Assembly: GCF_000003815.2 (NCBI RefSeq)
Contig: NC_049995.1
Span: forward strand, 13,978,262 to 14,042,261
Direction: 5' to 3'
Length of the DNA: 64,000 nucleotides
From: Branchiostoma floridae
Taxonomy: Eukaryota > Chordata > Leptocardii > Amphioxiformes > Branchiostomatidae
The notes beneath the pieces are model-generated. The model had not been told where the DNA came from and searched no databases. It worked only from the letters and a program-made list of their open reading frames with translations. This document shows positions 435 to 59,900 of the stretch, piece after piece. Positions within the stretch are counted from its first letter, which is position 1. Every line of letters starts with the position of its first letter. The translations under genes and the position numbers were made by a program.

Positions 435-2639
435 CTAGCTTTCGGGTCGTCTACTACAGACTTGAACGCTGAGTTAGGTGATGCATCAGACGTTCTTCAC
501 TTCGACAATCACTCTAGCGTTACCTTTAGTCCCCAATCAGAATTTGACAATGATTCCACTATTACATTAGGTTCCCAATCAGACTTAAGCAGTAGAACCG
601 GCCCTGTTTTGGGACACACTACTCTCACGGAGACTCACGGTCAGGAGCCCGTCACCCTCGTCATGAACCCGCCGCAGAGCGGGGAGGCCACGGAGTGCAG
701 CAAGGCATCGCTGGCAACGTCCCAAGACAGACCACACTCTGCATCTTCAGTCGGTAGCCTCACGCAGCACACCAGTAATGCCACCGCGGAGTCTCGGCGT
801 TCATGCCCCGCACATACCGGACTGCGCATACAGCCAACACGACTTCCCGGCATCTCTTCGTGCTCAGGCCCGCACAGCTTTGCAGCTGGTTCAGTCGGTC
901 TCGTCACAGCGGACATGTGGTCAGCAAATACCGTCACGACCCTTGACGTGCCTTCGCCTAAACCGATTCCTCCTCGCTCTGCCATTGAACTTCATGAGCT
1001 AGTGTACGACTCCGGGACACTCAACTTCCAGGGTTTACGTCTCCCCGTCAGTTCCAACTTGAAGATACCAGTGTGGAGGGCCACCTTGTCCCAGTACCAC
1101 GACAGTAAGGTCGCAGACTTCTTAGAATTCGGCTGGCCCGTAGGTTACACCGCAGCGACACTGCCTCGGTCCACGGCACGCAACCACACGTCGGCGACAC
1201 AGTACGGCGCTGATGTTGACGCGTATATAGCCAAGGAAACGAGACTCGGCGCTACCCATGGCCCCTTCGACGCTCCTCCCTTCGAGCGACTCACATGTTC
1301 GCCATTACAAACAGTGCCAAAGCGAGATTCTGACAAACGCCGAGTAGTTCTAGACTTGAGCTTTCCACCCGGGAATTCCGTCAACAGTGGTATACCCGGG
1401 CACGAATATCTGGGAGAGCAATTCAACCTTATACTCCCTAGTTACGACGCCTTCGAGGATCTACTCCGAAGCAAGGGTCAAGGCTGCTACATGTTTAAAC
1501 GGGACCTTAGTCGCGCATACCGGCAGATACCAGTAGACCCGCACGATCACCATCTCCTGGGCTACTGCTGGCGAGGCAAATACTACTTTGATTCATCGTT
1601 CCCGTTTGGCCTTCGGTCGGCCGCCATGGCCTGTCAGCGGACCACCAACGCGGTGTCCTTCATCTATTCCCTCCAGGGTTTCTCCTGCGTCAATTACATT
1701 GATGACTTTGGCGGCGCAGACACCCCAAGCAGAGCGGACGCAGCATATCTCGCCCTGGGTCAAACGTTTGACGATCTCGGCTTGGCCGAGTCTATAGAGA
1801 AGGCCACTCCGCCCTCTACCGAGATGACCTTCCTTGGCGTCGGCTACAATTCCAGCGTGATGTCCAAGGTGGTGACACAAGACAGACTCACTGACACCCT
1901 GAGCGAACTCGCGCTGTGGACAGACAAGAAGAGAGCAACGAAGCGAGAAGTTCAAGCCCTTCTCGGCAAGCTCTCCTTTATCTCGGCCTGCGTCACACCC
2001 GGCCGCGTCTTCTTATCGCGTATCATCACGACCTTGAGGGGCTTACGCAGCAACCATCACAGGGTCCGCATCAGTACTGAATTCCGCAAGGACATCAACT
2101 GGTGGCTCCACTTCCTGGTGGAATACAACGGCGTCTCACTCTTGCCAGACATAGCGGGTCGCAGGGCCCCTGACGTCCCAACTACAGATGCATGCCTTTC
2201 CGGCTGTGGAGGTACCTTCAACAAAGAATTCTTTCACGCCGAGTTCCCGCCGGAAATCGCCGAGTCCAATCATCCAATACACCGTCTAGAGATGCTAGCA
2301 GTCATCGCAGCCTGCAAAGCCTGGGGCGCTGCCTGGACCGGATGCACGATAGACATCGCCTGCGATAACTCTGTGACAGTACACGTTATCAACTCGGGAC
2401 GCTCGATCGACGCCTTCCTGCAGTCGTGCGCCAGGGAGCTCGTCTACCTGCAGGCCAGGCACGATTTCCACCTCTCGGCGCACCACATTCCTGGGGTCGA
2501 CAATAGATTGGCTGACTTTCTGAGCAGGTGGCACATCGACGCCAAATACCAGACCTTGTTCCGCGAAGCCACGGTCAGCGAAGCATGGACAGAAGTCTCC
2601 GCAAACCACAACTGGTTTCACTTCTCCCATTCCTGGTAG
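435..2639 (+). CDS. Ngaro-like reverse transcriptase / RNase H
   Basis: The frame is open from the base after the gag UGA to a TAG at 2637-2639. The first in-frame ATG comes only at about 663, so the usual start is unclear and readthrough from gag is plausible. After a low-complexity N-terminal region of about 200 residues come RT motifs: FKRDLSRAYRQ (motif A), FGLRSAAMACQ (motif B) and YIDD in VNYIDDFGG (motif C, catalytic Asp pair). Next is the thumb segment LLGKLSFISACVTPGR, typical of DIRS/Ngaro RTs. An RNase H domain follows, with TTDACLSG, HRLEML (Glu) and ACDNS (Asp). No protease or integrase is present. The frame is intact for about 730 codons, so the copy is not badly decayed here. 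Confidence 0.85.
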   Translation, partial: LAFGSSTTDLNAELGDASDVLHFDNHSSVTFSPQSEFDNDSTITLGSQSDLSSRTGPVLGHTTLTETHGQEPVTLVMNPPQSGEATECSKASLATSQDRPHSASSVGSLTQHTSNATAESRRSCPAHTGLRIQPTRLPGISSCSGPHSFAAGSVGLVTADMWSANTVTTLDVPSPKPIPPRSAIELHELVYDSGTLNFQGLRLPVSSNLKIPVWRATLSQYHDSKVADFLEFGWPVGYTAATLPRSTARNHTSATQYGADVDAYIAKETRLGATHGPFDAPPFERLTCSPLQTVPKRDSDKRRVVLDLSFPPGNSVNSGIPGHEYLGEQFNLILPSYDAFEDLLRSKGQGCYMFKRDLSRAYRQIPVDPHDHHLLGYCWRGKYYFDSSFPFGLRSAAMACQRTTNAVSFIYSLQGFSCVNYIDDFGGADTPSRADAAYLALGQTFDDLGLAESIEKATPPSTEMTFLGVGYNSSVMSKVVTQDRLTDTLSELALWTDKKRATKREVQALLGKLSFISACVTPGRVFLSRIITTLRGLRSNHHRVRISTEFRKDINWWLHFLVEYNGVSLLPDIAGRRAPDVPTTDACLSGCGGTFNKEFFHAEFPPEIAESNHPIHRLEMLAVIAACKAWGAAWTGCTIDIACDNSVTVHVINSGRSIDAFLQSCARELVYLQARHDFHLSAHHIPGVDNRLADFLSRWHIDAKYQTLFREATVSEAWTEVSANHNWFHFSHSW

Positions 2640-2716
2640 AAACTCCTCTCGCTGCTCCTAGTGCAGAACGCTAGGCCAGCAAACACCACCCCTCCCCAAC
2701 AACAGACTCCAGCTGA

Positions 2717-3733
2717 CCTTTCACCTTCCCTCCCGTTACAGCTACCGCCTGGCGGCTCCTACAACAGGACACCAGAGACACCCAACGGTCCGCCTTCGCA
2801 GCTTCCACACAGGCTAACCACCGGACTCACTTCGCCGCTTACCTGGGCTTCTGCGAGTATTTCCATCAACAGCCTTTCCCAGCCACCCCGCACCTCCTGT
2901 CCTGCTACGCGCAGTTTCTCAGCCGAACACTCAACTCGCCAGCCTCCATCTCTCATTACCTCTCCTCCGTGAAGCTCCTACATCACTTACAGGGTTTCCA
3001 CGACCTACACCTGAAACACTTTGAACTGCAGCAAACGCTCAAAGGACTGAAGCGCAACTTACAACACCGCCCAAGAGTCCCTCATCCCGTCACCCCAGAA
3101 TTCCTCTTCCAGGCCCACCTATCTCTAGACCATTCAAAACCAAAAGACGCCACCATCTGGGCTATCTTACTCGTGGGCTTCTTCGCCTACTTCAGGAAGT
3201 CTAATCTCGTCCCCCCCACAGCACGCGCATTCAAGCCAGACCACCATCTCTGCCGTCGTGACATCCTAGTTGCTCCAGAGGGCCTTCTCATCCGCACGAG
3301 TTGGTCTAAGACAATCCAGCCGAACGAAAGAGAGGTGTTGACACCAGTCCTGGCCATCCCAGGCTCTCCTCTCTGCCCAGTCGCCGCCTACAGACGCATG
3401 CTACACATCGTCCCTGCCTCACCAGACTCACCCGCCTTTCTACTCCCGTCCACGCCTCGCCGACCATGCAGACCGGTCACCAGCTCCATCCTGGAGAAGG
3501 CCTTCGCCCAACTGGTCGCCTCCGCCGGTAGGCCTCCGGGCTTTCACACCCTGCATGACCTTCGGCGCGGAGGTTACACGCTCGCCTTTGAAGCAGGCGT
3601 CCCCAGGGAACTCCGACAGCGGCACGGTGACTGGCGTTCCGACGCAGACCTGTTCTACCTGCAGCCCTCCATGGCACAGCGACTTCGGCTTCCAGCGGCC
3701 ATGAGGACACTGATCCTCCAACGCACCACCTAG
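2717..3733 (+). CDS. Ngaro-like tyrosine recombinase
   Basis: The frame is open from just after a TGA at 2714-2716 to a TAG at 3731-3733. It has no ATG near its start, and a TAG at 2672 and the TGA at 2714 separate it from the RT ORF, so its translation start is unresolved. The N-terminal part (FAAYLGFCEYF, then FLSRTL, then HYLSSVKLLHH) is a core-binding domain. The catalytic part contains the first Arg in AYFRKSNL, the HxxR box in LHDLRRGG, HGDWRSDA, and a Tyr in LFYLQPS. All the tetrad positions I look for are present. It would resolve and insert the circular DNA intermediate. A GTG at 2969 is a poor start because it would remove the core-binding domain. Confidence 0.8.
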   Translation, partial: PFTFPPVTATAWRLLQQDTRDTQRSAFAASTQANHRTHFAAYLGFCEYFHQQPFPATPHLLSCYAQFLSRTLNSPASISHYLSSVKLLHHLQGFHDLHLKHFELQQTLKGLKRNLQHRPRVPHPVTPEFLFQAHLSLDHSKPKDATIWAILLVGFFAYFRKSNLVPPTARAFKPDHHLCRRDILVAPEGLLIRTSWSKTIQPNEREVLTPVLAIPGSPLCPVAAYRRMLHIVPASPDSPAFLLPSTPRRPCRPVTSSILEKAFAQLVASAGRPPGFHTLHDLRRGGYTLAFEAGVPRELRQRHGDWRSDADLFYLQPSMAQRLRLPAAMRTLILQRTT

Positions 3734-32141: not shown

Positions 32142-35100
32142 ATGACCCTGGAAGCAACACACCTCCTGGCCGCTGCGAGCGGGTTCCTCGGCATGCTGAT
32201 GATCTACAAGTTCATCAGTCCCCGGGTGGTGCCGCTCTGGTTCCCGGCATACCATGCGCTGCCCTGGGAGAAGCAGATACAGGTCAACGAGATGTACGGA
32301 ACTTTCTTATTTTGTATCTTTAAAAAACTCCATGGTATTGTATTGTTTTCTTTTTTTTATGTCGATAGTGATGAAAATTAAGGAAATTAGCTACAGGTCA
32401 ACGAGATGTAAGGAGGGGTTTTGGATTGTTGTTTTTTTGTTAATGATGATGGAAATGGAGAAGTGACTTTAATTTAGTATTGACGACAAGTGGATTATCG
32501 CTACAGCTAAAGAGTAAAGAAAAGATTAGCTAGCTAGTCAATGCAGCCAATCTTCATGTAATCAAGATGTAATCAATATGATCATAGATACAAGAGATAT
32601 TTAGAGCTTTTGCAGATTTCATGAAAATGGCTATTTTGCCATTTTTGTACTGATCATGCAACCCGGTTCCTCATTTGCGTGTTTGGTATCTATTTATGTT
32701 CCATCTGCCATGAATAACTATTGTGTTACATTTATTGAAGACTTTGCCCAGTTATGAAAATGATGGAATTACAGAATTTCCTATCATATATTTTTGAGTG
32801 TTTCTGTAGGCCACAGATAGTGTATGGTGGGCGAGATTACATGTAAACATTCATAGATAAAAAATGACCGTTGTCATGGCAACCGGTGACACCAGTTGAC
32901 CCCAAATGTACCTTTTTTGTATGATTATATAAAGGCATCACACTTTTGGGAAAGGTCGATGTTTTGACTTTGACCACTTTTTTTCTACAGACAGCGTCTT
33001 AATGTCACCCATGATGCATTGCAATACCAGGGTGATTGATAAAACGCCCGCCGGGGTGTAATTCTTAAAATACTTATAACTCCTGATTGAATTGGCGGAT
33101 TTTCTTGATTTAAAGTCCAAAATGCGGGGAATAATGTGGCTAATCAATATAATTTATCATAAAAGACCCCATAGGTAGTCCAAAAAAATGCCTGATGTTG
33201 GAAAGTAAACAATGCATTTTCTACACAGAAATTACCCCCAAAATTGGAGTTTAAAGACTCATAACTTCCTAAAAATGCAGAATATTTACAAAATATTGCT
33301 TATTTCGTGTTTCCCAAGGCATGTTTTATCTATAAACCAATTTTCACAGAAAATTGTTGATGTTTGATAATTTGTCCTGGCCTTTTGTACTTAGCCCCCC
33401 AAAGCGATGTTCATTCCAATGACGTCATTTGGTCACGTGATTACAATAAGAAAGCTGTACATAAAAGCTTGCTATTTTACATAAGAATAAACTTTGGTTA
33501 ATGCAGATTAAAAAAATCCATAGTAGCTCTGGTCCCTCTCGGTGGTACAAAAAATCGTCCTGGCCCATGGACTAAACGGGTTAACTAGATATCGTTGTAT
33601 TTTATCTTAGTATTGAAGATACAAGTCATTGAGATGAAAGTACATTTTTGTCATGGTTACGGCGAAAAAAATTTCAACGGCTTTACTGTTTATATACAAA
33701 AATCTAAAAGAATAAAAGCTGAGATAAAAAAATGCATAAGATTCAAGGTACTTAACGGGCTACTGTCGCGCCGCGTGCCTACGATGCTGGTGTATGTGTG
33801 TATAGATACGCCGAAGGGCGGTTATACCGGCTATACGGATACAGATACTTTGTTGTTGGTATGTTTTGTGTTTTATTTGCTTTCTACTGCACCACATATT
33901 TCGGGTGAGCATTCTGTAGCTAGAAGTCTGGAAATCATCATTCAATACTAATGATCCACCTTTACATGTTGCTGCAATGGGTTTTTTTTCCAGCTTCATG
34001 GCGGGAAGTCACTCCGTGGTCGTCTGCATCTCCTCCTGGGTGGCGTACTTCACTGTGGAGGAGCTCAAGCCTACTACACTATGGTCGGTAGATGGTGATG
34101 ATGATAACTTTATACCTGATGATGATAACATTATACCTGATGATGATAAATTTATACCTCCTGATGATGATAACTTTTCACCTGATGATGATAACTTTCT
34201 ACCTGAAGACGATAAATTTAAACCTGATGATGATTAATTTATAACTTATGATGGTAAGTTTATACCTGCTGATGATAACTTTTTGCCTGATGATGAAAAC
34301 TTTATACCTGATGATGAAATCTTTATACCTGATGATGATAACAAAATACCTGATGATGATCACTTTCTACCTGATGATGATAACATTATAACTGATGATG
34401 ATAATTTTATACCTGATGATGATAACTTTATACCGAATAATGACAACTTTCTACCTGATGATGATAACTTTCTACCTGATGATGATAACTTTATACCTGA
34501 TGATGATAAATTTATAACTGATGATGGTAAGTTTATACCTGATAATGATAGCTTAAAGTTTATATCTGATGATGATAACTTTATACCTGATGATGATAAC
34601 TTTATACCGAATAATGACAACTTTCTACCTGATGATGATAACTTTCTACCTGATGATGATAACTTTATACCTGATGATGATAAATTTATAACTGATGATG
34701 GTAAGTTTATACCTGATGATGATAGCTTAAAGTTTATATCTGATGATGATAACTTTCTACCTGATGATGATAATTTTCTGCCTGATGATGATAACTCTAT
34801 ACCTGATGATGATAACATTATACCTGATGATGATAACCTTATAGCTATTATAGAAAATATATCATTGGCTACATACAGTCCGATTGAGTTTTTCATGAAT
34901 ACATAAAGGTTCAAACAAGCATCTCTATGACCTGATATACTTCTCCTGCCAACTCAGGTATGACTGTGCGTTAACCAGACACACCAGCGCCTTTTTCTGG
35001 GGGTACAGTATCGCAGGTAAGATTTTATACCTGGTTGATTGATTGATTTCTTGGTTAATTGATTGAATGATTTATTGATTGTATTTCTTAACACATTGCT

Positions 35101-41951: not shown

Positions 41952-44900
41952 TCATTCCTGCTCTGCCACCACGACTTTTTCTCTCTCCCGTTTCTTCTTG
42001 ATGCTGCCAGGTTTGCTGTGCCGTATTCTGTTCTGCTCCCTGGGGGAAACACAAAAATGTAAATAATGTTTTAATCAAAACCAAAACCCTTGTGATAATA
42101 CAGCTGACGGAATGCTATTATCAGGGTTCTCAAGAGGATTTTTCACAGCATAAGGGGCAAAGCCACATGGCAAGCCACACAGGGGTATGTATTGTAGGGG
42201 GGGAGGGGAATTTGGGGGATATTTCCCCATGGATTTCTATATTTGTAAACCTAAGAAACACTAAATTTTATCAAATTGAGCCAACATTTCAATTACAACA
42301 GTAAACTCAATACACACAGGGTAGGAGCCCGCTATGCTCAACTGCTCTAGCAAGAACCCTCTAAACATTACGATTTCTAGGGTAAAGGAATGAAAACTGT
42401 CTGTTTTGCACTGAGCTTGAAATGCCAACCTGCAATCAACAAAAGTTTTTGAGATAACAGTGAAAAAGAATTTACAGGGCAAATAAAACAGAAAAGGAGT
42501 ACTTGTACTACAACAAGCCCTGCTGGTGTAAGTTAATACTACATAATTGCAGAGGTAAAGCCAAGGCACGTACTTTCTCCTGCGCGAATCCTTCATAATT
42601 CTTGTCTGTCGTGTTAGATGGTGCACCTCCTTCGGCACATGGCGGTGGCGCGCGATTCGTCGCACCTGTGGGTGGTGCTGAAACTTCTCCTTCAGTTTGT
42701 CGTTGTACGACAACGCTGATTCTTCCCGCGGTGTCAACTGGGAGGGTGTAACAATATAAAGAATATGTGACATAGTCTTCTCATTGCTGGGACTCTACAT
42801 GTACATCTGTTATAATGACGATTAAAGTAGATTGTTAATAGAACTGACAATTGATGTACTGGTTTGTTACTTGCATGTTTCCTATTTTTTTTTAGAAACC
42901 CTGGCTTTCAACATGGATGAAAATGTAGAACCTTGTAAGGCCTTGCAGGGCTCAAAATACCACCTGCATATATGCAGGTTAGTGCAGGTAAAATTGGAGC
43001 TGTGCAGGTATTTCTGGTGTCTAGCTGCACCTAACCTAAATTCAGGTAGGAAGTGTGGTACAGGTAAAATTTATCTGGTGCAGGTAATTTTCAATGTTAC
43101 CTGCATCAGTGCAGGTATGTAGAAAAAATCATTTCGAGCCCTGCCTTGTAAGCTCCTCACAATTAAGCCTCTGGCTGAGTAGTTGGCCCATCTAATAACC
43201 AATATTTTAGCCAAACCCTCTGCTTATTTCACAAGAGACCAACAATGAAAGATGTCATATTTCTTCACCTTGCCTATCTTCTCAGCAGCCTTTGCCTTCC
43301 AGATTCGCACATTTGTCTCATCAGAACCGGAGAGGATGTACTTATTGTCCAGCGACCACTTGATACAGAACACTCTCTGCATACGCTTTGTGTGGTACAC
43401 CTCTCTGTAACAACAAGATTTAATGATAAATAAACAAAAAACAAGGTAATCTGAAACATGTTGATCAGTCTCTTCTGACAGGACCTGAAATGCACTGCAG
43501 AGCACAAATTCATACACACAGACAGACACACACACACACTCATTCTGGTTCATTGTCTTTTAATGCATAGAAACACAATACTTAACTCCTGAAGAACAGA
43601 AACAAATACTACATGTACACATAGACTCACACACAGACAGACACATAGAAACACAACATTCCAATGGGGTTTAACTAACCAAAAGATATAGGTTACTTCC
43701 CAAACTTAGAACAAGTTAGAAGGCTAGGAGGAAAACATGGATCTGACTAAATCATATTTCATTCCTCAAAATGGTGAGCCAAGGTTCAAAACTGTGAGCC
43801 AAAAACTTCTTCTAAGATTATATTTTCTTCTTGGTCCAACTTCAAAGCAACCAGGTTTCCTGGACATCAAAATTCAGGGCTCGAACTTAACTATGTCCCG
43901 ATGTCCCGGGGCCACTAAAAATTAGGCCGGGACAACTGAAAAATCTTTTTGGGACACTTTTGGGACAATAGGAAAATAATCAACGAATCAACATCAGAAT
44001 GTCCGATCTCCCCGCGCCCCGCGGTTGTCAGGCGTGCGAACTCTGACTTACAGTTGTTGTAATACATAATTTCTGAAAATAGGGTTGGGACAGTCCATCC
44101 TCACTTCGGGACAGTTGAAATTTATTTTTGGGACAATGCTGGGACAGTAGGGAAAAAAGTTAATTTTGAGGCCTGAAAATAAACAAACAAACAAACAAAT
44201 AGCCCTACCTGCTGCGTCCCTTGTCCAGCGGGAAGATGCGGATAGTTTTGTCGAAGCTGCCAGAAACAAACTCGCGACCAGTGGGAGAGTAGTCTAGATC
44301 CAACACTGCGTTCACATGGTCCATGTGGATGTTAAATGGGGAGGTCAGGCGTCGGATGTCAAAACTGTACAGACTGGGAAGAACATGTGGGTGAATCCAA
44401 AAGCTCTTAGCCTCATCAAGAAGGAAGGGGCAGATGTAAACGATGGTTGCAGACGAGCTGGCCACCGGTTGTCGTGCACCGAAGGAAGGCAAATGGCAAG
44501 GAAATGTCCAATTCAAAGTCTTTATTCCATTCCTGTAAAGTCTCACAATGGGTTCCAGGTAGCGGCAGCACTACTCTCAAACTATAGCAAAGTGTCCGGT
44601 CTAAAGTCTCTGCTACTGCTCACTTCTGCTCGGCTGTCTGAGAGTGGTCCCGGAGTCAGGCTTCCCGCCTCCTGACTGAAGAAATTTCCTAAGTTTCAGC
44701 TTTTATTTCCTTAACTTGTAGGATCCTCCCCCTGGCCAAATCTGAATAACAAATGTGAATTCCCCGATTTTGGTTGGTTAGAAATATGCAGAGCAGAAGT
44801 GACAGTTCATCAGAAACGGATCTTTTCCAGTTACAATTTGACTGACATTTTGCTGCGAAATAGTGTCAAAACCCCCATTTTCCCATTTATGTTCATTAAA

Positions 44901-47900
44901 GTGCTGATACCGTCAGGTCAGAGGTCTGGTTCACGAACTCACTGACCAGGTCACTACACACCCTGTTACCCCCTGCAATACTGTAATCGTGAAACCCGGA
45001 TCAATTTCTAACACTCAACAGTCATGTCATACATCGATCACCTAGGACCCGTCCATACGAAAGTAGGGAGGGTTTACAAAGGGTAGCTAATGGTTGCTGC
45101 CATACCTGGTAGGAATACAAGACTTTTCACTCAGTAAAATTAGTCATACAAGAAAAGAATAAGTACATAAAATAATTGTCTCGCACATGTCAGTCTTTCA
45201 CATCGTTCCGATCTAACACTGGGTTGTTTACTGATGTTTCAAAGTCTATTTTGCTAGATCGTGGCTTCTGAGTAGACTATGGTGACGTCGGGCGTCTCAA
45301 GTATCTATCTCTTAATTGGATGTGACCCCTGCTTTGGTTGGGGTCACTGTTGGCCCGGGACTAGGTTTGTCCAGCCCTCCCTGTCAATCACTGAAGACCA
45401 CCGGAGGAAGTCTCCTAGGTTACAACTGGTATCCTTACTTGTCAAAAGATAACATTCGGTAGGAAAGTATAGCACACATTCAGTGATTACTGTACTTATA
45501 ACACTTACAAGATATTACATTTCTTCTAGATTTCATCAACAACTTTAAGAATGGGCGACTTTTAACATATGTCTGTCCTAAGTCTTAGGCGATCTTAGGA
45601 ACCTGTGCTGTATGCCCCCATTCTGTCTTCAACAAAGATGTCAACTTCCTACCCTCGGGTTTGTGCAGTCAACGACCTGTTAACGTACCATAACTAATTA
45701 TTATTTCTAGAACTACCGAGCATCAGACTAGAGCCACAGCCTGGGAATGGTGGCAGTGAAAAAGTTCAAATGAACTGGCTTTCCCTCCGCGGGTTCTCAA
45801 ACCCAGCAGAGTCTTTATCTGTCAAAGGATCGTTTTAGAAGACGTACGTCGGCCCAGCTCTAGTCATCTGCGTGTTGGCTTATCAGCTATCACTAATCGG
45901 TCATTTGAGATAACACCCTCGCCCACAATCTGGTGTAAATGGATGGGCCGAAGTAAGGAAATACATAGGAAAACGGGGGCCGAAGTAAGTAAATACTTTG
46001 GGAGACAGCTATCATTACATCAAGCAGGCTAGGGGCCTGCTTACACCCCCTTGCTGGAATCTTGCATCGTCCCTGATGCAAAATACGTTCTTATGACTAC
46101 AGAGTACTGAGACACACTAACACCATCGAGTATAAAGAGTATATACGAATACATAAGGTTACGTTTGGTTATACATAATAATATACGATTACATACTGTC
46201 TCCTTCATCACCATCATTACCATCACTACCACCACTAGAAACGTGGCGATCAAAAAACCGAATCGTGCCTGCCCAACGGCATTAACATTGTCGTGCACTT
46301 GTCTCTTGAAAACACTAATATAGAGATAAGACTGAGGTGTCAAACTCAAACGAGACTCACAGAGTTCACGCTTGATGATAACCTACTAGGTAGAGACCTT
46401 AACTGTTACTAAATATTACGTCACCGTCGCTCACACATTCTCTTGTACTACCTCATCAGCCTACTAACGTGGCATGCTTATTGCTCAGAGAATAAATTAC
46501 ATTCTGGTCCCTTTTCCGTCAGTCACATTCACAGTCATAGTCACAGTATGGCCCAACGGCCGTCATACGACAACACATTGTACAACTATAGAGTTATAAC
46601 TGGGCTCTCATGCACTTCCTACGGGAACATGGACTTGAGTACTATTCCCGTACTTCCTTCTAATCGATACGATGGCGGAAGGAGAAGGAAAACAAGGCGA
46701 TAGAGAATTAAAAATACTTAGAGCCGCCTCAACTCGAGCGGAGGGACTTGTCCCTTGGGGACCAAAGGACGGCCTGGTGTTTGTCTTCCCAGGTCCTTCC
46801 ACGGCATTTGAGCACACCTTAGCCCACTCGGGCGTACTTCAACGATTAAAATATAACTAGTCTAGGGAAGATTCCCTTGTTCTCCATATACTGTACACTA
46901 TTCCATTCGGAACACACACTTTGAAATCAGAGGATTACTGTAAGAACCACCTGTCTTACTAGAAGAGAAGGAAGCCAGTGGACTTCATGTATAATCAAAG
47001 TTCGGCATTACTTTGTTGGGGTGGACATTCCTACCGGACCGAACAGTCATGCTGCTGGCCTGGAAAACCTGTCCGAGACGGACCAAGAGGCCTTCCAGTG
47101 CAACTTTTGGAGAACAAATAGGTACCGATTATCAAGGAACATACGTCGTCTCTAACTAACCCATCCCGAACACCATTGGCAGAGATGGAGGATTCAGAGA
47201 CACCACTGAACACACCTTTAACAGAGATGCAGGATGCAGAGACACCACTGACGGAGAATCAGAGGGCTGCGATAATAAACTATGGAGGCTGTCGTTTTCC
47301 CAGACAGAAAAGGAATTCTTCAATGGGCTGCTGAACCCGGCGGGGATAATCCCGTGGGACTTTCTCAAGAAGGGCGGTACACCAGACTGGTGACACAAGG
47401 AAAATAAGACGTCCAAGGTGTCTCCTGGCATAGCGACCACAGCTAAAGTCTCCTCAGCAGTCCACGTCAAGAGAATGGGATGCCATACAGGCGGTACACG
47501 GAAAATATGACAACAGAGAATAATAGCAGTAGCGGCCGTCCACGAAATTTCTGAGTGACCGAATACCAAGTGTAACAGCGCTACGGAACACGGGCTCGAC
47601 TACTACTTCCGCAATTTCCGGGCAACAATATTTGCCCTGCGTTTTTTCTTTCTTTTCCTTCTTTCACGGCCACGTGTAAAGTTGAAGTTGAAGTGATCGA
47701 TATAACGTACCACTTCCAATGAAACGTAACACAGAGTAACCCCTTCCTTATTCACCCCCATTGTCTACCGTGTTCAGCACTCGACTACGACTCCTGTCGA
47801 GATGGAAAGGTCTGGGGACGATGACCCCCATACAGCGAAACCTGAGCTGTCATATCTACAACGATGCCAAGGCACAGAACCCTCGCATGAGACAGACACT

Positions 47901-50900
47901 TTGCCTGTCAATCTCTAATACTAACCATTAAAACTATATGCCTAAGTCTCTTTCCGTATTCCTTCCATGTGCCCCAATTGGCTACTTTTGTGGACTCTCA
48001 CGGGAAAATCCACACTTCAATTACAGACTCATCCGACCATGCAACGGACGGAGCTCACCACACGATCATATGTTCTTAAGGTCAATCCCGTGTAACCCGA
48101 CGGCTACCGGAAAGCCAAACAAAGCCTCGAGGGCCCTCATTTACTCAATCAAACATTAGTATCTATCCCGTCCAGACAGTGGAACGGCCGTGGGTGAGCT
48201 GCAAGATTTCACACAGACAAACTACATAGCTCCCCATACTGGGCAGAGGAGTTGCTGTGGACACCAGGAGGAACACACCCTTGTTACACAAATCACAAAT
48301 GGGTCACCCAACTTCCCTAAAGGACACTCCCCCTTCCCACAATGGGCATTTACCCTCACTGCCTCGTCTTCTAAGGGCAGGGACGCTACCCCCTGGGTCA
48401 CCCATCATGACCTGACTACCCCGGTATCGTTGACTGCACCTTCCCGATTGTTTACATCACCATCTTCTTAACTAACTTATGCTAATACAGTGTAGTACCC
48501 TAATCTTATCCATAAGCTAACTTACACATAGCCTACCCTACTACGTCGGAATCTTGCTTGCATCTTGCCGTCGAGACAGGAACAGCGTTCGTGATTGTCA
48601 GGAACAGCGTTCATTTCAGGCTCAGCGTTCATACGGTCAGGAACAGTGTTCATTCCATCATTTGTTGCCATAGAAGTTGGTGGTGTCTCCACCCTTGCAC
48701 TGCCCGAAGTCGCCGTTTGATTTCCTTCTGCTTAGTTTCCATCTGATCGCGCAAGGAGTCCACCTCCCGTTGCAGTTTGCGGACGGCGACCAGCAATTCC
48801 AGCGATGACCTGACAGGTACGTGTATCACCGGGAACCTCATGCCGACAAGTCGTCGTTCAATGTCCAGGGTATGATGGTCGGGTGGCCAGAGAAGTCGGC
48901 TGGCTAGGGCATTCACGTCTTCTCGCCCTGACGTTGATCGTCTGCTACCCGACTGTCGCGCATCAAAGTTCGCAGCGTTCTGTCGAGTAGCGTACTCGCT
49001 CCATAGTAAAGCGTGCAGTTCAGGACAAGGGCGACATCCCTCTTCCTCCAAGGTCAACCGTTGAATTACCCGCTGTTGTCCCCGCAGTGTAGATTCCAGG
49101 TGCACTTTAGTGTCTCTCAACTTCTCTGCGGTCGCCACCAACTGGGGGAGAGTTTGTCTCGCGGGCGGAAGAAGACACGGGATGTATGGACGCGACGAGT
49201 CCATAGAGCTGGTCTGCCGGGAAGGGTCTGTTGGTCGAGCGTCTGCGGGTGCCTCCGGCCAGTACATGGTCGCGGAATCGTCCATCGAAGTCGCCACTCC
49301 AACTCTTCAGGGATCTGTTATAGGAGGAAGACAGAGCATACACGACAAGTCGCCCCCTTGCTTAATCCTAGTGTTAACATCAATCACAATTATCTAACTC
49401 GTACAAAAATAAAGATAAGTAGATAAATATAGATACATAGGTATATTAGGTAGAAATATAGATGTATAGATAGATACTTGATTATATAGGCTCGATAACT
49501 CGGGCCGCCTTCATTGCTTCCACTTCTAGTGTGGAGTAATCCTAATTGTGCGTCAACCCGCTATCTACCTGACTGCAATCTTTGTCCCGCCCTATTTTAT
49601 CAATACATATCCTTAACCTATAGCCTGTCTTCACGTATCCGGCAAAGACACTTGCGGACTTTATAAGATCCCGTACGCGTCTCAAAAGAACTTAACGCGT
49701 CGTTTTCTTCACTCTTATATTGCTAGTACATTTCTACCCGATCGTTCCTGTCACCACAATAGGCTCCCCGCTTGTCATCCGCCCGTTTGGGTGATGGATC
49801 ACATAACTGGATCCGGCGGACGGGATCCGATTTGGAAACCCGCCCCTGAGCAACAGGTCGATCGATTCTCTACATCCATACTGCACCATTGGAATTATCT
49901 TTGCTATTAGATTCCATCTCTTACTTTAACGTCACCAATTATCTCTCCGGCACACCTTGAACACCAGCCTTCCTCCCTATGATCTCCTGTGACTGTCCCT
50001 GCCAATATACGCCCGCCCATTTGGGTGCCCGCACGTAAAACTATCCAAGGCGATCACAATGAGGTCGAGGGTTGGCCTTGGAAGGACCAGCGCCTTAGTT
50101 TGCCTATAATCTCTGTTTCCCAACTCACGTACAACCTGCCTGTTCATCTCAACATTTCCTGCCATACTGTCTTCACCTTGCCGCACGTAGCTCCACCCAC
50201 CAATTTACGCGAGCCCAGTTTGGGTACCTACACGCAACACCGACGGGGTCGGCCCGCTGTGAACAAGGTTGCGCAAAAGACAGTACCGGTAACTAAATCT
50301 ACCACAACATCGATAACCCGTGCGGAACAATTCTCTCTAGTCATCACTTATAACATCTTCTGTGACAGAACTCCTCACAGAATCGCCATCGCCACCTCGA
50401 CACAGCCTGCCTGTCTCCCACTCGTTTGAGCCCTGAAAACACAACAAACCACTACGGGCGAAACCAGTTTTGGTATTACCACCCACTGAGCAGCGACAAC
50501 CGATCCTGTGCCTAGGACGGAGGATTGCCACGAACCAATAAATCTTCTACCAGTCTCTTCAGTTAAAATGGAACCACTGAATCGCTATTCTTCTTTAATT
50601 TAAGGACATTACGACTTCAGCACCCTAAACTACTTCAACTCACTACCAGCTAACGTTCATCAATCAGAATCCGTTACTCGTCATCCCTATATTTCGTCAG
50701 CCCGCCCAGGTGCGGACATCAGGTAATCATATAGGGTCGAAATAGCCCTTACGCCCAACAAGATTGGGTTTCCAAACCAATTAGGGGGTACTCCTCTATT
50801 CGCACGTATTGGATACCTTGGCTGCCCTTCCCTAGTCGGATCGTTGACCTGCGCCGGAGATGGTTCGTCATCTCCATCGCTAACCATAGAACCAGTAGGA

Positions 50901-53900
50901 CTTGCAACCGAAACGGCCTTCGGGCTCGTCGCACCCTCAGAATTTGGGGAAACGTATTCTTCCACCGGCCTAGGTTCCTCGTTATCACTAGGGTCACTAG
51001 AACCTTCTCCTACCGTATCAAAGAGGTAACGGGGGATAGCGTATACGTCAAAATACGCAGAGTCCTCATCATCTGGGTCGTCTGGCAACGGGTCAGCTAC
51101 CTTAGCGCTATCTACCCGGCGCCCCGACTCACGCCTTGACCTGTCTGCGGCCCGGGTCTTCTGTTCCGGATCGAAGAAACAAGGTATGATCATATTCCTA
51201 TGCAACTTCCGGGCAGGCCCCTTACCCTTTTCTGGCTCAACCACATAAACGGGGACATTGGCATCTGGCTGTTCTTTTACAATATATGGACCTCGTTCCC
51301 ACCGAAATTGGATCTTCTTCCTGCCCTTGCACTTTTTGTCCTTAACCAACACGCGTTCGCCAGGGAGGAGCGGCGCTTCTTTTGCGGTCTTATCGTAGAT
51401 TCGTTTCCGTGTCGCAGCCGCTCCGGCCAGGTGCTTCTGCGCTTGGGCGTAGACGTACTGATAGCGTTCGTGGTGTTCCCGGACCCAGTCATCGGGACTA
51501 GGTTCCCCCCCTTCGTCTTCTGGGTCAGTCCCTAACGTTAAATCTATGGGCAACCTCGCGTGTCTCCCGAACATCATATAGTACGGGCTGTAGCCAGAAC
51601 TGCTGTGCGGGGCGTTATTGTATGCATGCACTAGTTCACCAATGTATTCAGGCCAGCGTCGTTTCTTATCTACCTCAAGGGTTCCCAGGAGATCCAACAA
51701 GGTGCGGTTGAATCTTTCGCACTGCCCATTTCCCTCGGGATGATAGGGCGTGGTCGAGACTTTTGCCGCCCCATATAATTTGCATAATTCTCGAATGGTC
51801 TCAGATTGGAAATTAGCGCCCTGATCCGAATGGAGTTTACGAGGGAAGCCGTAGGGAAGGATAAAATGCCGCCAAAGAGCCTTAGCAGTAGTCAGTGCGG
51901 TCTGATCTCTCGTCGGGACAGCCACTGAGTACTTAGTGAAATGGTCGGTTATTACCAAGACGTTCTCAATTCCACTCGACGACTTTTCCAACTTCAAGTA
52001 ATCCATAGCGACTAGTTCTAACGGGGCCGACGTCTTTATGACCACGAGAGGTGGTTTGACATGCGGGACCGGGGTTTTACGCAGCCCACAGTTCATGCAG
52101 GACCTAACCCAAGAAGTCAAGTCGGCGGCCATGGTGGGCCAGTAAAACCTTTGCCTGGCCAACCCAATAGTCTTAGGAGCGCCCATGTGACCATGACGCG
52201 TATGTATCTCATCAAAAGCCTCTCGACGTAGTGCGGCCGGAAGTATCACCTGTCTAGCGCTGCTCACATGCCCGGGTCCCCAAACTAACCGATACAGGAC
52301 CCCCTCGCTCAAATGGAGTCGTCTCCATTGACTCAAAAGCCGACTAACTTCCTGCATTTCCCCAGCCAACTCCCGATGGGTGGGTTGTTTCCCCTTGCGG
52401 AGGTAATGTAGGACCCGCTCTAGCCCCGGGTCCTCCTGCTGCAACTTACTTATCCCCTCCTTATCATGACCTAACCAAGCTGTTTTTAATTTCTTATTCT
52501 TCTTCTTGGGCCTAGCCTTACGTGTCTCCCCGGTCGAACTTGACGGATCGGAACTAGCCCCTTCGTCTTCTTGGACAGTGAGCATAGCAACCGAGGTTTC
52601 CTGAGAAGGTAATCGCGACAGGGCATCGGCGTTAGCGTTCGATTTCCCCGGGCGGTACTTTATATCAAGCATGAAATTCTCCAACCTGGCAACCCATCTT
52701 TGCTCGGTCGCTCCTAGGACAGCCGTCTTTAGATGGGCCAAAGGGTTATTATCAGTATACACAGTTACTTTGTTACCCAGTAAATGTTCCTTGAACTTCT
52801 CCGTCACTGCCCACTTAAGCGCTAGAAGTTCTAATTTGAACGAGCTGTAGTTGTCCCAATTACGTTCCGCCGCCCGAAGACCTCTACTGGCGTACGCTAT
52901 GACGCGTTCTCTCCCGTCCTGCTCCTGCGACAGGACTGCACCTAGACCATCATTACTAGCGTCTGTGTACAAAATGAAGGGTTTAGAGTAGTCAGGGTAC
53001 GCCAACAACGGAGTGGACGTCAGTTTGTCACGCAGGGTGTCAAAAGCTCCCTGACACTCAGTGGTCCAAACGAATGGGACATCCTTTCTAACAAGTTCGT
53101 GTAACGGCTTGGCGATCTTACTGAACGACTCGATAAACCTCCTGTAGTAAGAAGCAAACCCTAAGAACTGTCTAACCTGTTTGACGGTCGCGGGGACCGG
53201 CCAATCCCTGAGGGCCGCGGTTTTGTCGGAATCAGTGGATACTCCTCCCTCACTAACCACGTGACCCAGATACTTAACTGCCGTACGAAACAAGTGACAC
53301 TTATCTGGACGCAATTTCAACCCATACTGATGCAGGCGGGAGAAGACCACGTCTAGTCGGGCCAATTGCTCATCAAACGTCTTAGAAAACACTATGATAT
53401 CATCTAGGTAAATTAACAGGATTTCTAGGTTCTCATCACCTAGGCAACGCTGCATTAATCGTTGAAACGTACTGGGTGCCCCGGTCAACCCAAACGGCAT
53501 TCGAGTGAACTCGAACAAGCCCATGGGACTTGTAAAAGCGGTCTTCTCCCGATCAGCTTCATCAACTTCGACCTGCCAATAACCTGCGGCTAAGTCCAAT
53601 GTGGAAAACAGTCGAGCCCCTCCTAAAGCGTCCAGACTCTCGTCTATTCGCGGCAATGGAAAAGCATCCCGATGTGTACGCGCGTTCAATTTCCTGTAAT
53701 CAACACAGAATCTAAGAGTTCCATCTTTCTTCCGTACAAGGACTACTGGAGAAGCCCACGGGCTACTACTTGGCCTTATCACGTCTTGATCTAACATAAG
53801 CTGAACGTGGGACTTAACCTCCTGGTATAGGGCCGGGGGTATTCTGCGGTAAGCCTCGCGGGACGGGGGGGAGTCACCCGTCGGTATCCTGTGCGTTACT

Positions 53901-56900
53901 ACGTTCGTATGACCAAAATCGTGCTTGTGTTTCGAAAAGACATCCTTGTGCCGAGCTAACAGGTCTTTTAGCTTGGCGGTCTGATCCTCGGTTAAACCGC
54001 TAAGGTCTACGTCCACGTCTACCGGAAGCGAACTGTCCACTTCACTAACTCCCTCTGTTCGATCCACGCTAACTGCCCTTACCTCGGCCTCCGAATCACC
54101 AGTCTGTTCTACCTGTACGTCCTGTTCCGGCACTCGCTCGACGACAAAAATCTCGCCCAACTTAGCCCTAGGGCCTAAGGTTATGTCACCGTCAGAGACA
54201 TTAGCCAGTCTAACAGGGAGCCGACCGTGCCGTACCTCGGCATAAGTCCTTGCTACTGCGATTCCTTTATGAAGGGTCCCTGTCTCAGGAGGTTCGACTA
54301 GAACAGTATACGGAGCCCCGTTAGGTCCAGGGCGCGCCTTACAGAAAAGGATCATCTCATGCCCGGCGGGAATTACCAACTTCTCTCGTTGCGGTGCCCA
54401 AACAAACCCTACTCTACCATTCTCTCCCATAGTGAAACGTGACAACTTGCCCTCGGCCTTAAGTACCCGCGTCCAAACTTCTCCCTCCGAGGTTCGCTCA
54501 GGGCCTGGGTTTTCCAGCGCCTCCTGAACCACCGATCTACAAGAACCTATAACGTTCATACCGAGGATGGCTGGCAATTTCCAGCTAGGTTGATCCTCCA
54601 CAATTAAAACTCCTACTTTCGGCATGATTCGTCCCATAATTTGGATATCCATCTCGGCACACCCTACCAAGTGGACGGGAAGGCCATTCATCGCAGTCAG
54701 CTTTACCCATGATGCATCTGTAGTCAATTGTTCCCCCCTAGCTCCGAAATTAGACTCAAAACAACTAGCTGTCATCAAAGTTACCTGGGACCCCGTATCC
54801 AACAAACAAGGTATCTCTTTCCCCTCAAATACAACATTAACCTTTAAATCCCCACCTATAGTACGCTGCGACAAACTATGTAAACTCTCAGAGCGCGAAC
54901 CTCTAAGATCCCCCCTTGCTGCGTCCTGTGAACTACCTACAGTGCGTCTAACTTGGGGGCTACTTTCACTTAAACTCTCTACCGGGCCCCCCTCCCCAGT
55001 AGAGCCTCTTAGTTTGACCGTTGGTTGTACGCCGGACCCTCGAAGATCGGGGGCAGCCCCCGCGAAGCATTAGGGCCCGCCGCCGAAAAAGGCATAAAGC
55101 GAGGTGCCGGCGACCCTGGCCTAACGGCAGAGCATTGGCGCTGCATGTGGCCAACCTCCTGACAAGAAGAACAAATAGGTCGGCCGTCCGGAGTGAACCG
55201 GTGCTGCCATGCACGATCACCCGGCCGCCCGTTATTGCTGCCATTCCGCCTGTCACTCTCACCCCAGGATGAGCGTCCCCCGTCGGTCGGACGGGGCCCC
55301 ACGGCGGCCCGGTATCGCTCTGCGTCGTCGTACAGGTGCTGGTAGGCGCGATCCGTCTGCTGACCCCTCCTCAATTGTTCCCCTAACTCTCGGTACTGCT
55401 GACGTAGCTCGTTAAGTTGCTGCTGGACGGCATCAGGTGCAGGGCGTCTCGGCTCGGTTGACCCGGCGTTGTCTCTCTCTTCAGACGTCCTTCCGCCTCG
55501 CACCCGGGCGTCTCTTGCTGAGCTACGGACAACCCCATCTGCCTCTGCCATCTCCAAGGCCTCCCTCCGTACGTCCTGGAAAGTAAGGTTAGGGTCCCTC
55601 CGGATCAACTGGCGAAGAGCCGGCCGTAAAGCTACGTCACGGAGCCCCTCTATGAATTGATCACGCAGGACCTTGTCTGGTTCTGCAATGCTTTCTGGGT
55701 CCCTGCGGAGAATCTTGCGCAGGAGGTCTTGTAATTCTAAACTAAAGGTGCGGATATTCTCGTCTCGTTCCTGCCGGCGGGCGAACAAGTTCGATCGCAT
55801 AACGGCACTAGGGGTCGTGTCTCGAAAAGCCTCACGCAGGGCGACCTCTATCGAGTGTATGTCCTCCCGATCCCGTGGGGGAAGGACGGCAATCTCCCTC
55901 CGGGCGTCACCCTCCAGATGACGCCAGATGGCGTGAGCTTGCTGGTCTCGGGGCGTTCCCCACGTATGAAACGCCCCAAACACCTCTTCTAACCAGTCTT
56001 CGACAGAAACGGCCGGGTCCGTCCCGGAGAACTTAGGCAGTCTCCGGTCCATCGGCACCACAACATGAGACGGGGCACCGGTCAGGCAGGAGGGACACGA
56101 ACGGCGCCTATCCTCTTCCGGGTCTCGCTCGGACAGCACACGGCGTCGGGGAAAGGAATAAGGCGGACGCTCCCGACCGTCATATCGAGGCAGAGAATCT
56201 CTCTGTACGGTGCGCGGTGAGCGTCCATGGATACCATTCCTCACTGAAGGGGTGTAGGTGACCCGTTCTCCATCAAACCTAAGCTGTGGATCTACTTCCT
56301 CTGTCTCCTCTATGTCGTCCATGTCGACCAAGTTCACCAAGCAGATAACGGAGTAAAAGGGAGTTTAAAACGGCCCACTTGAAACCAACGGCGGTGAATC
56401 AATAGCGACAATTCTCTCACTACACCAAAACAAAGTTCACCTACGTGGCATAGAATTTAGAACACACCCCGTACGAAAGGCAAGATAAAAGATCGTAACA
56501 ACAGCCGTCTCGTCTCGTATGGAATGACACAAGAATTGAAGAAAGAGGATAACCGAGGGGCAACTTGAAAAGGAGCAAAATCAGACAGCCTATAAATCAC
56601 CGCTCAAGGAAAACTGTGGCAATCCAATCGATGCTGAAACAACATATACTAGGCAAAATAGCAGGGTCCAGATATAGCCTCGAGGAAAACAACAATCAAC
56701 AAGAGAACCCAACAGAACTCACCATTCCTCGCCGTGGATAGTACATAAACAAAACAACCACAAAAATAACAACAATAGAGGACTAAAATAAAATAGAACA
56801 AGGACAAATCAAACAACCCTTACAAAAGAAAAAAATCCAGATCAAAAGCGAACTGTGTACGCATTCAATACTCACTGAGCACAACTGTTCAACTAAAAGT

Positions 56901-59900
56901 AAACCATAATGAAATAAAGCAAGACGCGAAACAGAGATTACAGCGCACTGGCCCTTAGCGACGCATGTCTAGATGGGATTCCCCCCTTGTCCAGGACTGT
57001 CAAGATTACTTCTATATATCACCGGAAAGAACAAGGTGCGCCAGAACTGCCGGCCGTGACGTTAAGGTCATTTAGATGAACTCCAGTCGGGCCACCACGG
57101 AACAATATGGATGCAGAGGTCATTTAAACTAACTCGCGTGTTACAAACAACAATAAAAAGTTTCCCGTTCGTGGCGGGGAATCCGCAAAAGTCCGCTTTA
57201 CTGTCTCACACTGTCTTACCGGATACCCGAAGAGCGGTCCGTTTAACCAGTCGTGGTATTGTTATTGATCACTGAATGTCTAAGGATGCAGTTAGTGAAC
57301 GATGGGGCTATCTCTAAACAGACGTCCCTGACAAACTTCTTGTCTTTTACCTCATAAAACCCCGTCTCTGGGTTGAGAATCAACCAAATATACTCCTGTA
57401 GCGTGTCAAGCCAGTTTATGAGTACCATACAGTTGCACGATGCTGGTGGGAGGCCGTATCTCGCCCAGTGTTGACAAAGATTATCAAAAAGGTCAGAGAC
57501 ACACGCTTCGTAACTGGAGTAATCTGCGAATGTTCTAGATCTAACGTCCGTACACGTTTGCGATAAAACGATCATGCGAAACCCGGGATTCCCGGACGGT
57601 CCCCCCTCTGCCATCAATACCTAACTTCTAAAACATCTATGGTAAGATATAACAACATCGGCTATTATGAAAGGCGACTGTCGTGCATCTCCATCAAACC
57701 CCCACAACAGATTCCCTTACCTTAAGATGTTCTTCGATGTTGCCTGCCGCAGTCTCGTGTCACGGTCCTGTCGTAGCTTGCTTGGTGTTGTTACAGTTCT
57801 GCTGTTCCGTTGATTTTCCTTGTTTCCACGTCGATCCTGCCGACAACGCCAAGATGTAAACGATGGTTGCAGACGAGCTGGCCACCGGTTGTCGTGCACC
57901 GAAGGAAGGCAAATGGCAAGGAAATGTCCAATTCAAAGTCTTTATTCCATTCCTGTAAAGTCTCACAATGGGTTCCAGGTAGCGGCAGCACTACTCTCAA
58001 ACTATAGCAAAGTGTCCGGTCTAAAGTCTCTGCTACTGCTCACTTCTGCTCGGCTGTCTGAGAGTGGTCCCGGAGTCAGGCTTCCCGCCTCCTGACTGAA
58101 GAAATTTCCTAAGTTTCAGCTTTTATTTCCTTAACTTGTAGGATCCTCCCCCTGGCCAAATCTGAATAACAAATGTGAATTCCCCGATTTTGGTTGGTTA
58201 GAAATATGCAGAGCAGAAGTGACAGTTCATCAGAAACGGATCTTTTCCAGTTACAATTTGACTGACATTTTGCTGCGAAATAGTGTCAAAACCCCCATTT
58301 TCCCATTTATGTTCATTAAAGTGCTGATACCGTCAGGTCAGAGGTCTGGTTCACGAACTCACTGACCAGGTCACTACACACCCTGTTACCCCCTGCAATA
58401 CTGTAATCGTGAAACCCGGATCAATTTCTAACACTCAACAGTCATGTCATACATCGATCACCTAGGACCCGTCCATACGAAAGTAGGGAGGGTTTACAAA
58501 GGGTAGCTAATGGTTGCTGCCATACCTGGTAGGAATACAAGACTTTTCACTCAGTAAAATTAGTCATACAAGAAAAGAATAAGTACATAAAATAATTGTC
58601 TCGCACATGTCAGTCTTTCACATCGTTCCGATCTAACACTGGGTTGTCTACTGATGTTTCAAAGTCTATTTTGCTAGATCGTGGCTTCTGAGTAGACTAT
58701 GGTGACGTCGGGCGTCTCAAGTATCTATCTCTTAATTGGATGTGACCCCTGCTTTGGTTGGGGTCACTGTTGGCCCGGGACTAGGTTTGTCCAGCCCTCC
58801 CTGTCAATCACTGAAGACCACCGGAGGAAGTCTCCTAGGTTACAACTGGTATCCTTACTTGTCAAAAGATAACATTCGGTAGGAAAGTATAGCACACATT
58901 CAGTGATTACTGTACTTATAACACTTACAAGATATTACATTTCTTCTAGATTTCATCAACAACTTTAAGAATGGGCGACTTTTAACATATGTCTGTCCTA
59001 AGTCTTAGGCGATCTTAGGAACCTGTGCTGTATGCCCCCATTCTGTCTTCAACAAAGATGTCAACTTCCTACCCTCGGGTTTGTGCAGTCAACGACCTGT
59101 TAACGTACCATAACTAATTATTATTTCTAGAACTACCGAGCATCAGACTAGAGCCACAGCCTGGGAATGGTGGCAGTGAAAAAGTTCAAATGAACTGGCT
59201 TTCCCTCCGCGGGTTCTCAAACCCAGCAGAGTCTTTATCTGTCAAAGGATCGTTTTAGAAGACGTACGTCGGCCCAGCTCTAGTCATCTGCGTGTTGGCT
59301 TATCAGCTATCACTAATCGGTCATTTGAGATAACACCCTCGCCCACAATCTGGTGTAAATGGATGGGCCGAAGTAAGGAAATACATAGGAAAACGGGGGC
59401 CGAAGTAAGTAAATACTTTGGGAGACAGCTATCATTACATCAAGCAGGCTAGGGGCCTGCTTACACATAGGTACTGATCCTCAAAACAGCAACACAAAAA
59501 ATTGACCAAATATGAATACAGTAGTCTTTGTAACACAAACTCTGCTGTCCAGGGCTGTAACTGGCCCCTCCCTGCTTATTGGACAGCCTGCTATAAGCGA
59601 GATTAAATCAGGCTACGAATACTAGTATGGAATAGTCTACTAAAACACCTAGCCTGTTCTGTAAAGCAGTTCAACACTTAAGTAGCCAAACATTACAGCT
59701 ACCCCAGCTCTGCCCAGCTGTAAGTTTAATGTCAGGCCCTAGCATGCTAATATGTGCATAGAACTCCACTTCTTTTCAGATGTTTTGTTTTTATGTGCAA
59801 GTCTTTGTGTCAATAACCACCAATGGCCATACTAGGGTAAAAACCTCCCTGAGTGATATGCTCGATATGTTACTTGCTCAATACTCAATATATGTACATG

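Follow-up and report, generated by a model that had tools for sequence, protein, structure and literature searches.

An ERH-like open reading frame between the primer-binding site and gag of a Ty3/gypsy-type element in the amphioxus Branchiostoma floridae

Background

Captured genes in LTR retrotransposons are already known. In Phalaenopsis orchids, Ty3/gypsy elements carry an open reading frame (ORF) for an AlkB-type m6A RNA demethylase which is active in vitro and has been proposed to counter epitranscriptomic control by the host (PMC9289625). In bdelloid rotifers, LTR retrotransposons harbour ORF3s coding for a GDSL esterase, a DEDDy exonuclease or env (PMC5408684), and in the amphioxus Branchiostoma floridae itself LTR elements of the Troyka type occur, which were once assigned to Gypsy (PMC12440569). 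As a cargo of such elements, ERH is apparently new: no paper on an ERH-carrying transposable element was found in the literature searched, outside subscription journals and Repbase. ERH is usually encoded in single copy; its fold comprises a four-stranded sheet with three helices on one face, and its dimers scaffold RNA-processing complexes.

Structure and genomic setting of the element

The window, i.e., the whole stretch of 64,000 nucleotides of B. floridae DNA that was analysed, contains on its minus strand a Ty3/gypsy-type element of 15,031 bp (44435-59465). Read in the sense of the element, its features are as follows, where C6 and C18 denote other contigs of the genome.

57855..59465, minus strand: 5' LTR, 1611 bp, TGTAAG...TTTACA; part of a 1615-bp repeat with 1 mismatch, ends set by eye
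57834..57851, minus strand: primer-binding site TGGCGTTGTCGGCAGGAT, 3 bases past the 5' LTR; a near-identical site lies at the same junction in the C18 copies
57720..57722, minus strand: putative donor-like site AAG/GTAAGG in the leader, 106 bases upstream of the ERH start codon; 11.3 bits with a hand-entered matrix, the best score in the stretch from leader to gag
57243..57614, minus strand: ERH-like ORF, 123 codons; PF01133 at E 1.4e-7; dN/dS 0.11-0.12 against three C6 copies
56323..57242, minus strand: stretch of 920 bp from the ERH stop to gag; its first 479 bp align at 73% with C6:25785240
55009..56322, minus strand: gag, 437 aa; PNMA 24.7 bits (cut-off 25), CCHC knuckle 19.3 bits (cut-off 20.8)
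50687..55069, minus strand: pol, open frame of 1460 codons with protease-like, RT, RNase H, H2C2 and integrase core domains; in the -1 frame relative to gag
48650..49285, minus strand: ORF3, about 210 aa, between pol and the 3' LTR; no family over cut-off
46046..46054, minus strand: polypurine tract GCAAGGGGG adjoining the 3' LTR, identified by reading
44435..46045, minus strand: 3' LTR, 1611 bp, from the same 1615-bp repeat

The limits of the LTRs were obtained by trimming the 1615-bp direct repeat (44432-46046 and 57852-59466, 1 mismatch) by eye to TGT...ACA, giving 1611 bp. Since the two LTRs are near-identical, differing at one base, the element must be young. Its primer-binding site appears to resemble the 3' end of tRNA-Ser. 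The element thus has the LTR pair, the primer site and the polypurine tract of an LTR retrotransposon, and its pol domains follow the Ty3/gypsy-type order of protease, RT, RNase H and integrase, with RT (116.6 bits), RNase H (108.1 bits) and integrase core (47.6 bits) all over their cut-offs and the protease falling short of its own (22.3 bits, cut-off 28.2). A first-pass annotation made from the letters of the window had placed an ERH-like ORF between the primer site and gag of such an element, and the LTR pair, primer site and pol domains confirm this order (LTR, primer site, ERH ORF, gag, pol, ORF3, LTR), the ERH ORF starting 240 bases from the 5' LTR.

With respect to the other genes of the element, both the PNMA and the CCHC knuckle scores of gag lie slightly below the curated cut-offs, a search of gag against solved structures gave no match, and the gag/pol overlap holds no slippery site of the form XXXYYYZ. 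ORF3 is nearly unique, as a search of the genome retrieved, besides its own copy, one match of 45 residues (44%). The bases flanking the element, TATG before and TCTG after, are alike at three of four positions, and at an LTR-only copy on contig C191 the LTR is bounded on both sides by TAAG, a 4-bp duplication. Identity with Troyka is ruled out by the termini: Troyka elements end in CG...CG and generate target duplications of 3 bp (PMC12440569), in contrast to TGT...ACA and the 4-bp duplication at the one LTR-only copy.

A DCAF13-like gene of B. floridae harbours the element, in sense orientation, in one of its introns. An exon at 44208-44378 matches human DCAF13 with residues 2-57 of 57 (84.7 bits); better E-values were obtained for two multi-repeat WD40 chains. 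A further DCAF13-like exon was recognised by reading beyond 60000. Also by reading, the element lies about 60 bases ahead of the next DCAF13-like exon, and because of its in-sense position so close to that exon it may disturb the splicing of the gene. Elsewhere in the window there is another piece of a retroelement at 435-3733, with a weak RVT_1 match (31.2 bits, cut-off 29.6) and a second open frame without family, and at 34096-34846 a region densely filled with internal direct repeats, where each strand has long open frames.

Identity of the ERH-like reading frame

The frame at 57243-57614 runs uninterrupted from ATG to stop over 123 codons and contains the motif RTFADY. In a hmmscan search up to E 10, PF01133 (ER, Enhancer of rudimentary) was the sole Pfam family reported for it (E 1.4e-7; 32 bits, the curated cut-off being 25), with residues 14-98 of the ORF covering profile positions 3-89, that is, 87 of the 98 positions, and with E up to 1 admitted the same family was matched by all four element copies scanned (best E 3.1e-10). 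By sequence comparison with the solved structures in the PDB, the single protein found C. elegans ERH-2 as its best match (E 1.8e-4), followed by mouse and human ERH, and a profile built from four sequences lifted the ERH-2 match to E 4.4e-6. Hence the significant matches of the ORF in Pfam and among PDB sequences are to ERH only. The homology that the first-pass annotation had read directly from the sequence, the RTFADY motif included, is thereby borne out by a family profile over its curated cut-off and is, as far as sequence comparison can tell, real.

The element protein is, however, a strongly diverged and retrotransposon-borne member of the ERH family (PF01133), being 21-26% identical to 28 aligned ERHs. 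At 123 aa it exceeds the 100-110 aa given for the family (PMC10605862); the N terminus is about 10 residues longer, and the C-terminal part is longer as well. A protein search of 5.8 billion sequences (two runs with 3 and 31 candidates) yielded no relatives of the ORF, nor did a scan of viral contigs.

Two ERH genes, both with introns and with intact exons, are present in B. floridae on contig C1 (at about 17.846 Mb and 9.674 Mb), contrary to the single-copy status assumed for ERH in the first-pass annotation, and the element protein might have their products as partners or as targets. The element ORF is intronless. There is no signal that it was taken from amphioxus, as its description as host-derived would have it, since its identity to amphioxus ERH (23%) falls within the 21-26% seen for the 27 other ERHs.

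Conservation of the dimer face

The dimer interface of human ERH comprises the residues H3, I5, L7, Q9, R17, Y19, D21, D66, L70 and Y79 (PMC10605862), and the corresponding positions of the window copy read R, I, L, Q, R, F, D, E, L and Y. Based on one mouse ERH record in human numbering, seven of these 10 residues are identical, compared to 23 of 102 aligned residues overall (P 0.001), and within the columns conserved in the family the numbers are 7/9 for the interface and 18/63 (P 0.0014). The changes are H3 to R, Y19 to F and D66 to E, and at the position of H3 three C6 copies have the H. In S. pombe Erh1, the same face forms both the dimer and a pocket for Trp112 of Mmi1, with His9, Val70, Ile11, Leu13, Trp25 and Asp27 (PMC6335422), and in C. 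elegans it is the site bound by TOST-1 (PMC8458385). In view of the excess of identity at the interface, it seems that the element has preserved the face used for dimerisation and docking and has allowed the rest of the protein to diverge.

Structure prediction with AlphaFold2 gave poor models. From the single sequence (pLDDT 49.5), no ERH was among the best 50 of 106 Foldseek matches; with the 28 ERHs aligned, an input that steers the model (pLDDT 49.7), ERH chains took ranks 1-20 at E 0.15 or worse.

Related copies in the genome

A protein search of the genome returned 11 matches. One of them is the window copy, nine rows belong to seven places on contig C6, and the last, on C10, was left out of the counts at E 0.58. 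The corresponding Pfam search gave nine: besides the window copy, it recovered two copies on C6 and, on C1, six exons belonging to the two host genes. All seven other places with relatives or fragments of the ERH-like element are thus on C6, and the window copy is the only full-length ERH-bearing copy found by these searches. At four of the seven places ERH is immediately preceded by the leader and, before it, by the LTR's 3' part, with identities to the window copy of 82-84% in the leader and 76-83% in the LTR end, and at two places the stretch after ERH runs, via a deletion, into a pol like that of the window copy. That the elements are nested, or that a host gene lies inside by chance, is ruled out by the joint recurrence of ERH, leader and LTR end at 4/7 C6 places.

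The C6 cluster spans 19.6-27.9 Mb, and some of its members are segmental duplicates. Two copies are 96.8% alike over 5 kb including tandem repeats beyond the element, and since this identity extends outside the element, the C6 set is in part the product of segmental duplication. The C6 copies might use another gag, since three C6 loci contain gag-like matches of 33-37%, but these matches may equally belong to other insertions. The ORF is decayed in the dead C6 copies: one (A) is without ATG, another (B) carries an insertion, and others contain stops.

Copies lacking the ORF, which the first-pass annotation had named as evidence against its proposal, were found, among the LTR matches examined, only as copies on C18 in which gag and pol were likewise not found and as LTR-only matches. 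At two places on C18 (4.925-4.935 Mb) the LTR (96.4%) is followed by the first 55-74 bases of the leader and accompanied by parts of the 3' region, and neither the flanks nor the intervening 9610 bases (2065 of which are N) yielded ERH, gag or pol; the LTR-flanked stretch looks like a non-autonomous derivative. A 19-residue ERH-like match on C18 (E 0.037) was taken as chance, and two LTR-only loci gave similar chance-level matches (E 0.02-0.08). Of the 26 LTR matches in the genome 20 were examined, among them seven LTR-only loci on C191, C5 (two), C7, C1, C2 and C12, with identities of 87-97% over the stretch examined, and three more on C6 at 70-85%.

Selection on the reading frame

For the estimation of dN/dS (Nei-Gojobori, with bootstrap ranges), the window copy was compared with the copies at three of the seven C6 places, each over its open stretch only (123, 113 and 90 codons), the four remaining places being broken or short. 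The ratios between the window copy and the C6 copies are 0.12 (0.06-0.23), 0.12 (0.06-0.23) and 0.11 (0.04-0.21), at dS values near saturation (1.01, 1.10 and 1.32). In line with this, the differences at the first, second and third codon positions number 16/15/47, 16/15/44 and 13/13/37, a threefold excess at third positions (P 3e-6 to 1e-4, the comparisons being not independent as the window sequence is common to all three). Among the C6 copies, by contrast, dN/dS is 1.10, 0.77 and 0.27, and every range includes 1.

The frame has accordingly been under purifying selection between the lineages, and the other copies display constraint at this level rather than the decay that would have counted against the first-pass annotation. 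Since the ratio is low between lineages and compatible with 1 among the C6 copies, the frame was held by selection during replication of the element; such a pattern fits a gene that is required during multiplication of the element and may decay thereafter. As no relatives turned up in the primary search databases, the estimate compares one young copy with one C6 lineage that consists in part of segmental duplicates. In addition, the identity of leader and LTR end (76-84%) is higher than the synonymous divergence would suggest, for which either constraint on the leader or a mosaic history with mixing of modules may be invoked as the only explanations offered here.

Possible roles of the element-borne ERH

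With modest confidence, the ORF is regarded as a functional, fast-diverged member of the ERH family which is kept by selection as an accessory gene and probably enters, or competes with, host ERH complexes, sparing the element RNA. If expressed, the protein would keep the dimer and peptide-docking face of ERH and would form homodimers, or heterodimers with the host ERHs. These might draw off or block partners that belong to the machinery for RNA decay and silencing in the nucleus, and full-length element RNA, with its strong donor-like site unused, might in this way escape nuclear retention, decay or ERH-dependent heterochromatin. Reviews tie ERH to piRNA biogenesis, microRNA processing, the decay of meiotic RNAs and the repression of endogenous retroviruses (PMC10605862), and when ERH is silenced in human cells, endogenous retroviruses and SINEs become derepressed (PMC10605862, citing McCarthy 2021 for endogenous retroviruses). 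The stability of transposable-element RNAs is also regulated by ERH, and an m6A/YTH/PAXT route retains in the nucleus those unspliced RNAs whose donor motifs are intact (PMC11629677). On this background it may tentatively be proposed that, by dimerising with host ERH or by filling its docking face, the element protein disarms ERH-dependent RNA decay and heterochromatin; the branches affected would be YTH/PAXT-like, small-RNA or H3K9me3.

The main rival explanation, in itself rather unlikely, assumes that the protein leaves silencing untouched and helps in the element's own cycle as a dimeric scaffold for RNA processing, splicing choice, nuclear export or packaging, on the model of those ERH partners that link to splicing and TREX export. 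The dN/dS and interface evidence fits this explanation equally, and one protein bound by human ERH is PDIP46/SKAR, which belongs to the export machinery (PMC10605862). Moreover, a position right behind the leader, together with the donor-like site at 57720 and a second one (CCG/GTAAGA) at 57219 between the ERH stop and gag, would suit a splicing regulator of element RNA, although the donor scores come from the hand-entered matrix and the sites are putative. Four short upstream ATGs lie between the donor-like site at 57720 and the ERH ATG, and the position of ERH as the first ORF raises the question of how gag is translated, for which splicing from 57720 or reinitiation are candidates.

Improbable is a history of two independent captures, or of an exchange of a module made up of LTR end, leader and ERH, in which case the codon signal would be partly older than the element. 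Such a history would account for a synonymous divergence (around 1) that exceeds the divergence of leader and LTR end. However, C6 copies can be aligned both in the leader 5' of ERH and in the stretch 3' of it, and at two C6 places the sequence goes on into pol like that of the window copy, which argues that ERH occupies the same place of a related element. Finally, that an ERH retrocopy landed in one element's leader and has been carried along without function would agree with the lack of introns relative to the host genes and with the decay of the dead C6 copies, but is very improbable and strongly disfavoured as the main reading by the dN/dS of 0.11-0.12 with its upper bounds of 0.21-0.23, by the threefold third-position excess, by the open frame in the one copy with near-identical LTRs and by the presence of the ORF in two lineages that are separated by roughly one synonymous substitution per site.

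Comparison with known systems

If the preferred reading of a selected accessory ERH holds, an element-borne ERH under selection would suggest that transposons and their hosts are in conflict over ERH, and its copies would constitute a natural set of ERH changes in which the dimer face is kept and the rest varied. Should the protein indeed disarm ERH-dependent silencing, it would be the transposon analogue of a viral mimic of a host factor. Within the ERH family, C. elegans ERH-2 and S. pombe Erh1 are specialised members, and the element protein would, like ERH-2, represent a diverged paralogue.

Amongst mobile elements, the AlkB-carrying gypsy elements of orchids (PMC9289625) are nearest in spirit, for they likewise have an extra ORF for a host-type protein of RNA regulation; they are, however, plant elements coding for an enzyme with activity in vitro, whereas the amphioxus element is an animal one with a putative non-enzymatic, dimeric adaptor. 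The bdelloid elements (PMC5408684) are also animal LTR elements with captured extra ORFs, but there the additional frame is an ORF3 besides gag and pol, whereas in the amphioxus element it precedes gag and would code for an adaptor of RNA biology.
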